From NCBI RefSeq assembly GCF_938074695.1, contig NZ_CALJEM010000060.1:1-38885 (forward strand): a stretch of DNA of 38,885 nucleotides. The letters are read 5' to 3'. Both the position numbers and the translations under genes were made by a program. The notes below the pieces were generated by a model, which made no database searches, was not told the origin of the DNA, and was given only the letters and a program-made list of their open reading frames with translations. How positions within the stretch are numbered: the stretch's first letter is position 1; each line of letters begins with the position of its first letter. Positions 30,697-37,405 of the stretch are shown here, piece by piece. This DNA is from an uncultured Thermosynechococcus sp. Lineage in GTDB: Bacteria > Cyanobacteriota > Cyanobacteriia > Thermosynechococcales > Thermosynechococcaceae.

Positions 30697-31701
30697 TCAC
30701 GTAGCCGCAGTCAAGTTAGTGACATACCGCAGCAAGATTCCCTTTTGACCAAGAATGAACCCTTGATCGGGACCAAAGAAGAGAATTTTATAAAAGTTGG
30801 AGGGGACTTTTTTCACATCCACATCCTGCTGCCACGTTTGCCCACCATCTTGGCTACACAACAGTACCCCGGCACCCCCCCCCAGCCATATTTCATTGGG
30901 TGTGCGATAGGCCAGATCAAGAAAGCCTACACTATTACGACGCAGCGGACTCAGGAGTTCTCCCCAGTTCTCCGAATTTTCTGGATCAGAGAAAGCAATT
31001 TTACCGCCATTGACAATCATCCAGAGGCGACCATCGGGGGTAAAGCCCATGTTGTGGACACGACGGGAGGTGGTGCGATTGTGGGGTTTCCACGCCCTTT
31101 GTCCCGGCTCCCAAGTGGAATAAAAGCTCCCCCGTGAGGAAACAGCCACATACTCACCAGAGGGCGAACGGTTGAGGTTGCGCATGACACCAATGGCTTC
31201 TTGGACTAATGCTTGCCAGTTTTTGCCGCTATCTTTGGTACGGTAAATGGCGCCCACATCGGTCATCATTTCCGCAGCGCCGTTACCCAACGCTTTAATA
31301 AAGCGGGGGGAGCCAGGGAGTTTAGGATTGAGGGGAATTTGGCGCCAAGATTGGCCACCATCCGTTGTGTGGAGCATAATTGGCGGCTCACCGACAATCC
31401 AACCCTCGTTTCCTTGAAAGCTAATGCTGTTGAAGCGGTAGTCTGGATTATCTAAAACCAGCGTGCGCGGTTCCCAAGTTTGACCACCGTCGTGTGTTTC
31501 CATCAGTGTGGCATTAGTCCCCACCAACCAACCGTGATTGCGGTCAATAAAGCTCATGTCGAGAACCGTTGCGGTCGTTGGCAGTTGGAGCGCTTCCCAA
31601 GGGTTGTAGTCCAAGGCTGGAATGGCGAGGGCAGAGGCACTGAGCTTTACCCAGAGGAGAACGGTCACCAGGAGCCAATGCAGGAACTTGAATCCTTTCA
31701 T
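30697..31701 (-). CDS. ycf48: Photosystem II assembly factor Ycf48 (HCF136)
   Basis: A 334-residue seven-bladed beta-propeller. Repeats carry the GWLVG...HDGGQTW, GWIVGEPP...TDGGQSW, IYRTKDSGKNW and CSQDGGQTW signatures. A lipoprotein-free signal segment (MKGFKFLHWLLVTVLLWVKLSASALA) directs it to the lumen. Ycf48 binds newly made D1 and guides formation of the reaction-centre complex. The ATG at 31701 is chosen; one at 31737 would overlap rubA. Its upstream partner is rubA, as in other cyanobacteria, but psbEFLJ does not follow it here. Confidence 0.96.
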   Translation of the reverse strand: MKGFKFLHWLLVTVLLWVKLSASALAIPALDYNPWEALQLPTTATVLDMSFIDRNHGWLVGTNATLMETHDGGQTWEPRTLVLDNPDYRFNSISFQGNEGWIVGEPPIMLHTTDGGQSWRQIPLNPKLPGSPRFIKALGNGAAEMMTDVGAIYRTKDSGKNWQALVQEAIGVMRNLNRSPSGEYVAVSSRGSFYSTWEPGQRAWKPHNRTTSRRVHNMGFTPDGRLWMIVNGGKIAFSDPENSENWGELLSPLRRNSVGFLDLAYRTPNEIWLGGGAGVLLCSQDGGQTWQQDVDVKKVPSNFYKILFFGPDQGFILGQKGILLRYVTNLTAAT

Positions 31702-31726
31702 TTTTTGCCAATAAATGTCAATTCGT

Positions 31727-32062
31727 TTAGCGAACATTATAGAAACTCAGTAGAAAAAGAACGGCAAGGGCAAGACCACCAAAGATGAGGATATTTTTCT
31801 GACCCGGAGTGAGGCGATTCACCCCGAAGCCATAGTTGAGATTTTCCTTGAAACCCGAGGGAGATCCTACAGGTCCAATGTTGCTAAATTGCTTTTTGGG
31901 AGCACTGCACACTGGACACCGCCAGTTTAGGGGGAGATCGGCAAAGGCAGTTCCCGGCGGAATCGAACGATTTTCATCGCCCTTTGAGGGTTCATAGATG
32001 TAGCCGCAGGCACGGCACTCAAACCGATCCAAAGGGGCAACATCAGGGGTTTCGGCGGTCAT
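31727..32062 (-). CDS. rubA: Membrane-anchored rubredoxin RubA
   Basis: A 111-residue protein. A rubredoxin domain binds one iron through Cys16 and Cys19 (CRACGYIY) and Cys49 and Cys52 (CPVCSAPKK). It is followed by a linker and one C-terminal membrane helix (about residues 91-107, ILIFGGLALAVLFLLSF). RubA is required for early photosystem II assembly and works with Ycf48, whose gene follows 25 nt later. Repeated motifs upstream (32177-32225) may be regulatory. Confidence 0.95.
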   Translation of the reverse strand: MTAETPDVAPLDRFECRACGYIYEPSKGDENRSIPPGTAFADLPLNWRCPVCSAPKKQFSNIGPVGSPSGFKENLNYGFGVNRLTPGQKNILIFGGLALAVLFLLSFYNVR

Positions 32063-33133: not shown

Positions 33134-33483
33134 GAGAGTTGACCGAATTCAATCAAGTTGCCGTCGGGATCTGCCACAAAAATGGCTGCTCGTCCTGAAG
33201 CACTGCGCTGAAAGGGAATCTGGGCTGCGGTTAAGCGTTGCTCAAGACCGGCTAAATCGCTTACGCCAAGGGCAAAGTGGGGATTGCGTCCCCACCGCTC
33301 ATCTTGACGGCTATCCACTACTTTCTCAGCTTGGATCAGATGAATTTGCGCGCTACCCACTTGATACCAACGGCCGGCAAATTTTAGGGAACGCTCAATT
33401 GGGGTAAGCCCCAGCACCCCCTCATAAAAGGCGGCAGCTCGCTCCAAATCCGTGACGTTGATGGCAACGTGCAGAAAGACCAT
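33130..33483 (-). CDS. VOC superfamily (glyoxalase-like) protein
   Basis: A 117-residue vicinal-oxygen-chelate protein. It has FLHVAINVTDLERAAAFYEGVLGL at the N-terminus, with a probable metal-binding His in the first strand, HFALGVSDL in the middle, and FVADPDGNLIEFGQ at the C-terminus with the metal-binding Glu. The substrate is not evident; it could be an isomerase, a dioxygenase or a resistance-type binding protein. The ATG overlaps the cpcS stop as TGATG, so it is translationally coupled to a phycobilin lyase, which is worth noting. Confidence 0.85.
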   Translation of the reverse strand: MVFLHVAINVTDLERAAAFYEGVLGLTPIERSLKFAGRWYQVGSAQIHLIQAEKVVDSRQDERWGRNPHFALGVSDLAGLEQRLTAAQIPFQRSASGRAAIFVADPDGNLIEFGQLS

Positions 33484-34019
33484 CAAGAATTAGCAGGTTG
33501 CGTCACCCCTAGGCGAATTTCGGAACAGAAGGAGGCCATACTAAAGCCCCCAAAGCGCTTGAGAATGCTGGTGCGCAGGCGTAGATTGGGGCTGGCAAAC
33601 CAGAGCCGCTCTTCGGAATACATGGTTTCGTATTCGGTAATCAGTGTGAGGGCACCATCACTGCCCATACTGAAGCGACCGGCAACCGGCGCCTTTTCGG
33701 CATAGCCCATTTCCCGCAGGAGCTTGCCTTCTGTCCGCGACCCCTGATCCATAATTGGCACCAGTACCGTTGAGCCTTCGTGCTTTTCGCTGTCCCATTC
33801 CATGGTGCCGTCCCAGCTGACCCGTGCGCCGCACACTGCCCAAGCCGGATCGATGTTGTATTGCTGACACAGGGCAATGACCGCAGGATCATCTACAGAC
33901 AGTAACTCAATGGTTAACTGAGACTTGCCTGACTCGGTTTGCTTAAAGGCCAAGTGATGACTCGTGCGCTGGGAGAACCAGCGGCCAGCACTTTGGGCAA
34001 AAAAGTCGCGGATGTCCAT
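33483..34019 (-). CDS. cpcS: Phycobiliprotein lyase of the CpcS/CpeS family
   Basis: A 178-residue lipocalin-like lyase from the ATG at 34019. Conserved features are [23 protein letters not shown] at the start, [26 protein letters not shown] and [16 protein letters not shown]. CpcS proteins bind phycocyanobilin and attach it to the Cys84-type site of beta subunits and allophycocyanin. It complements CpcE/F, which act on CpcA. It is transcribed away from the HLR1-containing spacer and is followed by the coupled VOC gene. Confidence 0.93.
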
Positions 34020-34138: not shown

Positions 34139-34156
34139 AATGTAACGATATGTAAA
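34139..34156 (-). promoter_or_regulatory. HLR1 motif, predicted RpaB binding site
   Basis: On the minus strand TTTACATA-TC-GTTACATT matches the HLR1 consensus (G/T)TTACA(T/A)(T/A)-NN-(G/T)TTACA(T/A)(T/A) at every defined position. It lies 47 bp before the DUF2605 ATG (plus strand), just upstream of two TAAGAT candidate -10 boxes (34163-34168, 34170-34175), and 120 bp before cpcS (minus strand). HLR1 is bound by the response regulator RpaB, which controls high-light-responsive and photosystem genes. Confidence 0.75.
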
Positions 34157-34202
34157 AGAGTTTAAGATTTAAGATAGAAGTAGGTTGCCCTTATCCACCC
34201 CT

Positions 34203-34526
34203 ATGCTGCACTCAAATTTACCTGAACCTCAACTGCTTAAGGTCTTGCTGGAGCCACTACTTGAAGACTTTCAGTACTGGTTCACGCGATCGCGCTCGCT
34301 ACTGAAGACAGAAGTGATTCCCTTTCTAGGGGTAGCAGAACAGCAGGCTCTCCTTGAACGAGTAGAGACCGCCCTTAATGATGTGATTGCTACCCAAAGC
34401 CTCTTTCGGGCAACGGACGGCCAAGTGGGGGTTGATACGCAGGTGTTAATGCAGTGGCATACGCTGTTGATGGAGTGCTGGCAGGTTGCCCACCACTATC
34501 GCTTATCGAAATCTTGTGACGCTTAA
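34203..34526 (+). CDS. DUF2605 family protein
   Basis: A 107-residue protein from the ATG at 34203. LLKVLLEPLLEDFQYWFTRS, EVIPFLGVAEQQALLERV and ATDGQVGVDTQVLMQWH match the cyanobacteria-specific DUF2605 family as I recall it. It is helical and soluble, with function unknown. The preceding HLR1 site suggests light control through RpaB. It is followed by a DUF2973 gene, a pairing seen in other cyanobacteria. Confidence 0.75.
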   Translation: MLHSNLPEPQLLKVLLEPLLEDFQYWFTRSRSLLKTEVIPFLGVAEQQALLERVETALNDVIATQSLFRATDGQVGVDTQVLMQWHTLLMECWQVAHHYRLSKSCDA

Positions 34527-34562: not shown

Positions 34563-34844
34563 ATGTTGCAGTTGATTTATATTGTTACTTTTACGGTCTT
34601 GGCACTACTGGCTATGGCCAATCTAATTCGTAGTTTGTTGACTCTCGGTATTGAATCGCAACGGCAATTCTCACCGCAACGGGTGACCCATCCAGAACTC
34701 TTAGACAGCGAGGGTCACCTCATTGATGAACCCCTGTTGGTGATGCGCTCCCTGAGTGTGGAGGATGCCCGCGCCCAACTGGATGCAATCTACCGCGAAT
34801 CCCCTAGCTATGGCGACGACCAGCGTGGAGAAAGCCAAGCCTAG
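34563..34844 (+). CDS. DUF2973 family membrane protein
   Basis: A 93-residue protein with one N-terminal membrane helix (about residues 2-26, LQLIYIVTFTVLALLAMANLI), then a polar cytoplasmic or lumenal part, HPELLDSEGHLIDEPLLVMRSLS. It fits DUF2973, a family confined to cyanobacteria and of unknown function. It follows DUF2605 by 36 nt, so the two are likely co-transcribed and may form a light-regulated membrane unit. The end overlaps the start of a frameshifted small gene. Confidence 0.75.
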   Translation: MLQLIYIVTFTVLALLAMANLIRSLLTLGIESQRQFSPQRVTHPELLDSEGHLIDEPLLVMRSLSVEDARAQLDAIYRESPSYGDDQRGESQA

Positions 34845-35123
34845 GTTTTTAGGCCAATATGGGCAGCTCCTGAGCCGATGGTTTCAGGGGGATGCAGCGA
34901 CCCTAGCAGAGGTCTTGGCTAAGGCATGGCGGCAGTTGCCGGCAACGGAGGTCTTGCTGATTGGCAAACCCCCATCGGGGAAAACTTTGAAACTTTGATT
35001 GTACGGGCGATCGCGGGTGCCGAGGCCGGTATTGTCAGGGCAGGGTTTCGTCCCCTCCGGCAGCAACCACAGCGCTATGGCTACTCCACTATGCTTGTAT
35101 GCCTGCGGCACAGGGAGAGCTAA
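34810..35123 (+). pseudogene. Small hypothetical gene broken by a frameshift in a C run
   Basis: From the ATG at 34810 the frame reads KPRFLGQYGQLLSRWFQGDA ... TEVLLIGKPP and soon stops. The next frame continues GENFETLIVRAIAGAEAGIV and RAGFRPLRQQPQRYGYSTML to a stop at 35123. Adding one base to the five-C run (34969-34973) joins them into about 104 residues. This is either a recent mutation, a sequencing error or a slippage site. The family is not recognised. It overlaps the DUF2973 gene at its start and comEC at its end. Confidence 0.6.
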
Positions 35124-37405
35124 ATCAAGCCATCGTTTTGGGGGGCATTTGCCCGCAGGGAGCCATTGGCCTGCCAGCGCACTTCTCCTGTTTCTCCAAC
35201 CACAAAATAGGGAATTTGTTTCTGCTTGAGGTAGTTAGCGATCGCCGGCTCAAGGGCATTGCGACTGAGAATGACACTGCGGGGCTTGACAATCTCAAAG
35301 AGGCGTGGCGTTAATTTGCGCCCCCACCACCAGAGAACCTGGGGCGGCTCCACGGGTGTCACGGCCAGCCAATCGGTTTGTGCCGCATCACCACTGGGAT
35401 CAGTGACAAAGAGCCAACGACTACTACCCATCTGCAGCGCTAAGATTGCGGGATCTGAGCGCAAGACAGTGATTTTCACTTGACCCAGTTGAACGGGTTG
35501 CCGCAGGGGCAACGCTTGATAGGGCACCTTGAGGGTGGCCAACATTTCACGGTAGGCAGGATCACTCTTGGCCGTTGGCACATCTGTAAATTGGCGAATC
35601 GGGGCGATTCGATGAATGTCGCGCCAGCCCCGCTGTTGACGATACTGGCGATCGCTGGCCACTGCCCAATCAATACGGTTAATACCCTCTTGAGCCAAGA
35701 AAGCCGTTAGCCCCTGGGCATCGCCCCCATTGATCACCACTGTCCCTGCGGGTTGCTGAATTACAAGTGTCGGAACTTGTGTATTGGCAAGAACAGTGGC
35801 TTGAAAGAGGGTGTTTTGGCGCAGAACAAAGGGCACCAGAACAAGGGTGATGCCAAGAGTGAACAGCAAAAACCAGTGCCGCCGCCAGCGAGGACTCAGC
35901 CACACAAGAATAATCAGGCCATAGAGGACTACAACTTGGAGCCAGCTCAAGCTGCCAAGGGCAATTGTTGCTGCCGGCAACTGGCCAATAGCTTGGATAA
36001 GCCACAGGAGAAAGGCCGTGGGGTAGTAGAGGAGCCAGGCAAGGGCGGAGCCCACAGGAGGAACGAGGAGGCCAATCATTGCACTGATAAAGCCGCCAAC
36101 CGTCAACAGGACAAGGGGCAGATTGGCAACGACATTGGCCAGCAGACCATACACAGGAAAAATGCCAAAGATAGCCAGGGAGAGGGGGAGAACCCAGAGG
36201 GTGGCGGCTAAGGGCACAGCAATTAGATTACGCAGAGGCGTTGGCAACCAATCGAGGCGATCGCCGATGGGTTGGGCACTGACAATTAAGCCCAAGGTGG
36301 CCAAGAAGCTTAACTGAAAGCCAATGTCCTCAATCCACAGGGGGTTGTAAATCAGCATGACAGTGGCGATCGCCAGCAGGATTACAAGGGGTTGCCCCTT
36401 TTGACCATTCACTAGAGCCACTAACCCCGCCAAGCCCATGAGCACAGCCCGAACCGCTGAGGGGGCAAACCCACTTAAACAGGCAAAGAGCACCAAGACC
36501 CCAGCCCCCAAACCGTAGCGCCACTGCTGCGGCAAAGGACGTGTCAGCGCCAAGACAACCGCTAACAGAATAGCCGTATGAAACCCCGAGGCCGCCAGCG
36601 CATGGGATAGCCCCACTTGCCGAAAGCTATCGCGCACCTCAAAGGGAATCGCCACCGCCCGGCTGCCCAGCACCATTGCCGAGACCACAGCCCCATAGCG
36701 ATCGCCCAAACCTTGGGCATGGACTTGGACAATTCGCTGCCGCAGTGCCCACAGCCCCCACGGTGATCCCCGATCCAAAATCGTGACCCTATTGCCTGCT
36801 AAGCCGGCAAAGGTTTGCTGCAACTGAAGCTGCCGCCGAAAGTTAAAGGCACGAAAAAATTCATTGCCCCCGGCGCGGGGAAGATAGAGCCGCCCTGAGA
36901 TCTGAATCCGCTGGCTGGGATATAGCTTTGCCCCTTGCTCTGCTGGAAGCGTCACGTAAAGGCGGCCACTGGCTCTCCCCTGCAGAACCCCACTTTGGGC
37001 GGGTACCTCACTGAGATTTTGATAGCGCTCCACCCCTAGAAAAAAACGTTGTCGTCCGAGGCGATTAGGTAGTGGGGTGGTTTCAACCCAACCCTCGACA
37101 AGCACTGTTGGCGGTAGATTCAGAGCCTCAAGACGCGGCACTAAACGACTGATATCATTCACCCCCGGCTGGGGCGTGCGCAGCCACCCATAGGCCATCG
37201 CCAAGAGGGCAACCACAGTGGCGATCGCAAAACTTTGACTCGCAGGCAGTCGTAGCCAAACCTTGCCCCCCCAGCGGCGCCCCCCGTAGAGCACTCCCCC
37301 CAGCGCCAAGACTCCCAGCCAACCCCACTGAAAGAGACTGAAGACACACCCCACAATAAAGGCGATCGCCCAGAGAATGGCATCTGCTTTGGTAATCCTG
37401 AACAT
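35120..37405 (-). CDS. comEC: ComEC/Rec2 family DNA uptake channel
   Basis: A 761-residue membrane protein. It has N-terminal helices and a periplasmic OB-like domain (about 75-220). The competence core follows with about ten membrane helices (AASGFHTAIL, FAPSAVRAVLMGLAGLVALV and GFQLSFLATLGLIVS are typical). The C-terminal 200 residues correspond to the metallo-beta-lactamase-like domain. That domain lacks the HxHxDH metal motif: the place after VINGGDAQGLTAFL reads WAVASDRQYRQQ. ComEC passes single-stranded DNA across the inner membrane during natural transformation, which Thermosynechococcus shows. Confidence 0.92.
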   Translation of the reverse strand: MFRITKADAILWAIAFIVGCVFSLFQWGWLGVLALGGVLYGGRRWGGKVWLRLPASQSFAIATVVALLAMAYGWLRTPQPGVNDISRLVPRLEALNLPPTVLVEGWVETTPLPNRLGRQRFFLGVERYQNLSEVPAQSGVLQGRASGRLYVTLPAEQGAKLYPSQRIQISGRLYLPRAGGNEFFRAFNFRRQLQLQQTFAGLAGNRVTILDRGSPWGLWALRQRIVQVHAQGLGDRYGAVVSAMVLGSRAVAIPFEVRDSFRQVGLSHALAASGFHTAILLAVVLALTRPLPQQWRYGLGAGVLVLFACLSGFAPSAVRAVLMGLAGLVALVNGQKGQPLVILLAIATVMLIYNPLWIEDIGFQLSFLATLGLIVSAQPIGDRLDWLPTPLRNLIAVPLAATLWVLPLSLAIFGIFPVYGLLANVVANLPLVLLTVGGFISAMIGLLVPPVGSALAWLLYYPTAFLLWLIQAIGQLPAATIALGSLSWLQVVVLYGLIILVWLSPRWRRHWFLLFTLGITLVLVPFVLRQNTLFQATVLANTQVPTLVIQQPAGTVVINGGDAQGLTAFLAQEGINRIDWAVASDRQYRQQRGWRDIHRIAPIRQFTDVPTAKSDPAYREMLATLKVPYQALPLRQPVQLGQVKITVLRSDPAILALQMGSSRWLFVTDPSGDAAQTDWLAVTPVEPPQVLWWWGRKLTPRLFEIVKPRSVILSRNALEPAIANYLKQKQIPYFVVGETGEVRWQANGSLRANAPQNDGLI

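Follow-up and report, generated by a model that had tools for sequence, protein, structure and literature searches.

The closest described systems are cyanobacterial promoters controlled by RpaB through the HLR1 motif, whose consensus is printed as KTTACAWWNNKTTACAWW in the available excerpts of PMC13421787 and PMC11633204. In the excerpt of PMC13421787, HLR1 sites that repress fall between -38 and +23 and those that activate between -66 and -45, and ubiC is named among the RpaB-repressed targets; that of PMC6331805 lists sites on both strands and states that HLR1 in the core promoter represses under normal light. The word HLR1 is absent from the excerpted text of the eLife ChIP paper PMC5785211. 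The RpaB-repressed genes hliA/scp, nblA, sigD and ubiC/ycf21 carry the same 18-bp consensus as the site described here, at the core-promoter position that it too would occupy. The activated genes psaA, psaD, cpcB and psbA1 also share the motif, and their published sites, so far as excerpted, lie further upstream (-66 to -45) than the DUF2605 site. A comparable layout is found in PhoB box promoters, where tandem TGT-type direct repeats stand just before the -10 box and replace the -35 box, as at the DUF2605 site; the PhoB box has an 11-bp repeat and other half-site letters, whereas the DUF2605 HLR1 has a 10-bp repeat. The RpaB regulon is reportedly the subject of a study by Riediger et al. from 2019.

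The HLR1 site and its surroundings

The DNA analyzed, here called the window, is a contig of 38,885 nucleotides from an uncultured Thermosynechococcus sp. Its plus strand reads AATGTAACGATATGTAAA at 34139-34156; the reverse complement, TTTACATATCGTTACATT, fits 16 of the 16 defined positions of the HLR1 consensus with 0 mismatches, so the first-pass annotation, which had all defined positions matched, was confirmed on the minus strand. The site is thus oriented opposite to transcription of DUF2605. It lies just upstream of that gene, as had also been said, at a distance of 46 bp from the ATG at 34203 rather than the 47 bp given earlier. The locus is made up as follows.

33483 to 34019, minus strand: gene for a CpeS/CpcS-type bilin lyase (cpcS), divergent (PF09367, 2.4e-76); probably not the target of the site.
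34139 to 34156, minus strand: candidate HLR1 (RpaB-type) site, perfect 18-bp consensus, half-sites 34139-34146 and 34149-34156; conserved in relatives.
34149 to 34166, minus strand: weaker overlapping HLR1 match with 3 mismatches, tentative; it would place a third half-site on the -10 box.
34163 to 34168, plus strand: predicted -10 box TAAGAT, 6 bp after HLR1, from the sequence and its spacing in relatives.
34170 to 34175, plus strand: second possible -10 box TAAGAT, present also in genera g1 and g2 of family f1.
34174 to 34177, plus strand: predicted transcription start, 6 to 9 nt past the first -10 box, deduced from the position of that box.
34203 to 34526, plus strand: DUF2605 gene, 107 aa, predicted three-helix bundle (PF10792, 6.5e-41, 138.7 bits against a cut-off of 25).
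34563 to 34844, plus strand: DUF2973 gene, 93 aa (PF11189, 1.8e-25, 89.2 bits against a cut-off of 22.2).

Under a first-order Markov model fitted to the window, a perfect HLR1 is expected 0.0005 times in the window and 0.027 times in the genome; with a model fitted to the AT-richer 183-bp spacer, the expectation within that spacer is 2.8e-5. The draft genome (2.13 Mb, 90.76% complete) contains 2 perfect sites. With up to 2 mismatches it gave 56 matches against 39 for the reversed control pattern, and the weaker genome-wide matches are therefore largely noise; with up to 3 mismatches the window gave 10, against a shuffle mean of 4.7. A 1-mismatch HLR1 occurs at a gene of the same genome that was named psbA by eye (L012).

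The other perfect site of the genome lies at 1501-1518 of locus L001 (G000:C44:39582-39599). No ORF of at least 40 aa that starts within 300 bp on either side and is directed away from this site was found, nor any Rfam match. This site may control a small RNA or a very short gene.

Conservation upstream of DUF2605

Of 386 genomes of the phylum, 153 had a DUF2605 gene, as did all 11 of the genus. The 163 loci collected came from 134 of the 153, from 7 additional genomes of the genus and from 22 named entries, and DUF2605 was located in each. Since some named loci duplicate others, conservation statistics were limited to the other 141, with a single locus taken for each of 70 genera from 29 families. 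HLR1 in the same orientation was found upstream of DUF2605 with at most 0, 1, 2 and 3 mismatches in 8, 18, 43 and 57 of the 70 genera, respectively, and in the opposite orientation in 0, 1, 1 and 10; the corresponding means from 30 dinucleotide shuffles were 0, 0.1, 1.0 and 10.0 (maxima 0, 1, 4 and 17). The reversed pattern on the same strand matched in 0, 8, 23 and 44 genera, and is a poor and non-independent control, HLR1 being in part similar to its own mirror image; for this reason the controls used were shuffles, the background within the loci, the opposite strand and a leave-one-family-out test. At up to 2 mismatches and in both orientations, matches occupied 46 of 35,000 positions upstream of DUF2605 versus 19 of 507,042 elsewhere in the same loci, where their density is 35 times lower.

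For the leave-one-family-out test a 34-column matrix was trained without the family under examination, so that sites picked there by consensus were avoided, with a threshold of at least 10 bits and with family f19, which we take to be Cyanobiaceae, left out. Conservation of the site before DUF2605 orthologues, for which the first-pass annotation had suggested a search, was borne out: in the same orientation 56 of 64 genera passed, as did 22 of 28 families, against 0 of 64 genera on the reverse strand, while the site was found in none of the 6 genera (19 loci) of f19. With the same matrix, 59 of the 64 genera outscored all 20 shuffles of their own sequence, compared with 11 on the reverse strand. 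The eight genera below 10 bits belong to f1 (g3), f6 (g8), f10, f14, f21, f23, f25 and f26; other loci of f6 g8 and of f14 do carry an HLR1 with 1 or 2 mismatches. In genus g23 of f7, three of five loci have an HLR1 with 0 or 1 mismatch at another place and in the other orientation.

Judged from these sequences, the site is real and well conserved, far above chance, ancient and selective for the DUF2605-DUF2973 operon, which becomes a candidate member of the already known RpaB/HLR1 regulon. As its place and direction are kept in most of the examined families that have DUF2605, the two genes are strong candidates for a role in light stress.

The f19 loci (among L170-L193) keep DUF2605 and have lost both the HLR1 footprint and the adjacent DUF2973. 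A thrS-like gene stands beside DUF2605 in 5 of the 6 f19 genera inspected, and in the two f19 genomes that were searched DUF2973 is located elsewhere than DUF2605.

An effect of the site on the divergent cpcS gene, which had also been put forward, found no support. The site does lie in the shared spacer about 120 bp upstream of the cpcS start, and it could in principle serve mainly that gene. Among the 163 loci, however, cpcS is a neighbor of DUF2605 only in the genus of the window, in 10 of the 13 loci of f1, two of which appear to be duplicated by 2 named loci with cpcS. In genomes G007 and G287 a perfect HLR1 precedes DUF2605 and no cpcS occurs in the stretch examined. The commonest neighbor found is a divergent thrS-like gene, for a threonyl-tRNA synthetase (one cluster), present in at least 39 of the 70 genera and in 14 families, a lower bound because the flanks were short; the one cluster member checked has class II synthetase, HGTP anticodon and threonyl/alanyl SAD domains. 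The site thus follows DUF2605, being kept without cpcS and often beside a different divergent gene, and that cpcS is its main client is hardly credible.

Promoter layout and sign of control

Alignment of 56 sequences on the site gave the footprint WWTGTWAM-NN-WWYGTAAM-N4-GTTAAKATTA. The distal half-site of the relatives is TGTTA rather than the consensus TGTAA in 70% of these sites, and columns 22-26 (GTTAA), which cover the would-be third half-site, are conserved as well. A -10-like box, TANNNT, begins exactly 6 bp after HLR1 in 51 of 57 sites. Relative to the start deduced from the first -10 box, the site of the window would span about -36 to -19; if the second -10 box is used instead, it would fall at about -43 to -26. 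The former position would lie within the published repressing zone, from which repression by RpaB in low light is predicted.

Other promoters were compared with this layout. HLR1 with at most 2 mismatches was found at 3 of 30 psaD loci and 6 of 29 nblA loci (one more was skipped); the site is far commoner at DUF2605, although the genome samples were drawn differently, psaD and nblA from the class, and 350 bp were scanned there and at ubiC against 250 bp at DUF2605, so that the figures are not like for like. At ubiC, sampled from 40 genomes picked for having DUF2605, such matches occurred in 11 of 30 loci in the minus orientation and 1 of 30 in the plus orientation. An 18-column DUF2605 matrix at 10 bits or more gave, forward and reverse, 11 and 1 of 30 at ubiC, 6 and 1 of 29 at psaD, 4 and 7 of 27 at nblA, and 0 and 5 of 21 at hli, where the truncated loci L244, L271 and L272, included in the mismatch counts for psaD and nblA, were left out, and where 22 of the 30 hli-type loci found were taken and one of these was skipped. 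From these matches we conclude that the same motif family occurs at known RpaB targets. By mismatch count (at most 2), the orientation opposite to that of the DUF2605 site was seen at 8 of the 21 hli-type loci and the DUF2605 orientation at 2, one locus having both. Sequence variants of HLR1 are shared between ubiC and DUF2605, and at ubiC a TATAGT- or TAAGAT-like box often directly precedes the motif, consistent with a site lying over the start point. Unlike in the repressed hli/nblA/ubiC class, the gap to the -10 box hardly varies from 6 bp at the DUF2605 sites. In the genome of the window, ubiC (L312) has no HLR1 site; of the two hli loci, L223 has one with 2 mismatches and L203 none.

In ubiC/ycf21 loci of several families (L316, L332, L341 and others), a DUF2605-like HLR1 variant was observed at a similar distance. 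Orientation was also weighed as a clue to activation or repression and was discarded: the matrix matches of psaD and ubiC share one orientation, hli genes mostly have the other, nblA has both, and PMC6331805 lists sites on both strands.

RpaB is encoded in the genome of the window (NF045944, 400.5 bits against a cut-off of 330), and 20 further matches to the model below the cut-off represent other response regulators. We consider it somewhat better than even (probability about 0.55) that HLR1 is a genuine RpaB site in the core promoter of DUF2605-DUF2973, with repression in low light and derepression in high light. Phosphorylated RpaB would then, in low light, occupy HLR1 from about -36 to -19, in the interval that separates the -35 and -10 positions, and block RNA polymerase at the promoter; in high light RpaB would be dephosphorylated and released, and the operon derepressed, like the hli genes. 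We infer RpaB occupancy, the start site and the sign of control at the DUF2605 promoter. That RpaB is the owner of the site seems likely. Counter to this reading, none of the 6 genera of f19 has the site, 8 of the 64 others score under 10 bits, and ubiC of the same genome has no such site. To our knowledge RpaB is nearly universal, which is at odds with the gaps among the genera.

The near-fixed 6-bp spacing and the PhoB-box-like direction would also suit an activator. RpaB would then be class-II-like at the same site, replacing the -35 contact, and the operon would be on in low light and fall in high light. Such an arrangement would account for a gap to the -10-like box that is stricter than plain blocking requires, and no separate -35 box is conserved upstream of HLR1; psaD, from the RpaB-activated class, also has its matrix matches mostly in the same orientation (6 forward versus 1 reverse of 29 loci). 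The activating sites published in the excerpt of PMC13421787 lie at -66 to -45, however, and orientation is no argument for activation, because the repressed gene ubiC has the same one. We regard activation as rather unlikely; repression would be the likelier sign by a factor of two to three. Alternatively, the owner of the site might be RpaA or some other regulator of the OmpR family that binds direct repeats, the HLR1 match being a family resemblance. The prevalent TGTTA distal half-site, the rarity of HLR1 (at most 2 mismatches) before the known RpaB targets psaD and nblA, and the 20 sub-cut-off response regulators of this genome would agree with such an owner, which is nevertheless improbable given the perfect HLR1 of the window and of 8 of the 70 genera and the identical 18 letters found in one ubiC site (L316) and one DUF2605 site (L106).

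Footprint columns 1-6 stand 17 bp before the -10 box, and a conserved core promoter, with WTGTWA as a -35-like element and no regulator, would have this appearance. Sigma makes no base contacts in the spacer between -35 and -10. The proximal half-site (columns 13-17) lies inside that spacer and yet is conserved as strongly as the -10 box; these columns were partly picked by consensus, and the leave-one-family-out matrix tests them on the left-out families. A plain promoter would also be expected to recur, whereas 29 of 30 matches to a composite promoter pattern (at most 1 mismatch, 40 genomes), which was built from the DUF2605 promoters themselves, are DUF2605 promoters. We consider a core promoter without a regulator very improbable. 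The composite pattern gave, in the 40 DUF2605-bearing genomes, 60 matches, 36 at DUF2605 and 24 elsewhere, and 17 control matches; it was not found at DUF2605 in G049, G130, G142 and G361. Given 24 matches elsewhere against 17 in the control, the 20 of them that were examined are leads only; these include a sigma factor, a TPM protein, a phycobilisome linker, ArsA, DnaJ and ubiC.

The two proteins and their cyanophage relatives

The DUF2605 protein of the window is 97-98% identical to those of Thermosynechococcus MAGs, its nearest named relatives, and is predicted to form a three-helix bundle (mean pLDDT 88.3). For DUF2973 the prediction, of modest confidence (pLDDT 70.8, pTM 0.31), has an N-terminal helix at residues 2-34, hydrophobic by eye, followed by a tail with the short conserved motif HPELLD..G....EPLLVMRS. 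The predicted structures thus fit the earlier description of a soluble and a membrane protein. DUF2973 lies directly downstream of DUF2605 in 135 of the 163 loci (114 of 141 without the named ones). Sequence searches gave no convincing relative in the PDB (best E value 0.48), a fold search with DUF2605 returned nothing with E below 1 (best 1.3, generic helical proteins), and our literature search found no text naming DUF2605 or DUF2973. Psb35 (ssl2148) and APE1 (slr0575) were considered as names for DUF2973 and rejected, as the excerpts of PMC11449106, PMC9145668, PMC9458560 and PMC12164590 contain no such link. Our guess is that the soluble three-helix DUF2605 and the one-helix membrane protein DUF2973 may act in light-stress maintenance of the photosynthetic membrane.

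Both genes had been called exclusive to cyanobacteria. For DUF2605, searches of phage records and viral contigs brought up no relative. For DUF2973 the description is not quite right: by profile comparison it occurs in T4-like cyanophages, a new observation. It matches PHROG phrog_275 (all 21 aligned members), corresponding to the T4-GC 312 cyanophage proteins; HHalign gave a probability of 97.2 when the host profile was compared with a mixed one built from 3 phage proteins and 2 picocyanobacterial ones. The phrog_275 profile matched in all five genomes searched (cyanophages S-PM2 and P-SSM2, two f19 genomes, and the genome of the window), and the Pfam DUF2973 model scored above its cut-off of 22.2 in G116 (63.3 bits), G385 (70.2 bits) and S-PM2p184 (27.1 bits). 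S-PM2p184 is shorter than DUF2973 of the window (78 versus 93 aa) and bears the signature HPE..D..G....E.L..R, as in the host protein; its relatives occur in 80 of 50,697 phage records. Only two queries, the PHROG profile and the protein of the phage itself, detected phage relatives: tblastn with DUF2973 from the window and from L050 found none in phages, and scans of viral contigs for DUF2605 and DUF2973 yielded no confirmed relative.

In S-PM2 the gene follows psbD at a distance of about 1 kb and is separated by one small ORF from a glutaredoxin gene; in P-SSM2 one copy overlaps the end of a glutaredoxin gene and a weaker copy is near petE (phage loci L344, L345 and L346). HLR1 was not above chance at the picocyanobacterial DUF2973 loci, L347 and L348. 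The divergent neighbor of the host gene in G116 codes for a trypsin/PDZ (HtrA-like) protease. The phage copies and this neighbor are hints, not proof, of a photosynthetic role for DUF2973.

A wider picture, possible but doubtful, would make DUF2605-DUF2973 an ancient and widespread member of the RpaB high-light regulon, a better conserved target than psaD or nblA and a membrane-maintenance pair, of which T4-like cyanophages took up the membrane half, in S-PM2 near psbD and psbA, to sustain photosystems during infection. If the operon is indeed controlled by RpaB, two families annotated without function would be tied to the photosynthetic redox signal, and cyanophage DUF2973 is a second, independent hint at a photosynthetic role; the promoter would have an unusually strict spacing between regulator site and -10 box; and the plain prediction would be induction in high light, with the response lost in an HLR1 mutant.

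A GTPase-like gene (named by eye) has left a remnant at 34849-35133, downstream of DUF2973; it contains an internal stop and shares 34% identity with an ORF that lies beyond DUF2605 in L142. At 30697-32062, some 2 kb away from the spacer between cpcS and DUF2605, a Ycf48 gene (PSII_BNR, 480 bits) adjoins a rubredoxin gene; both kinds of gene are known in photosystem II assembly.
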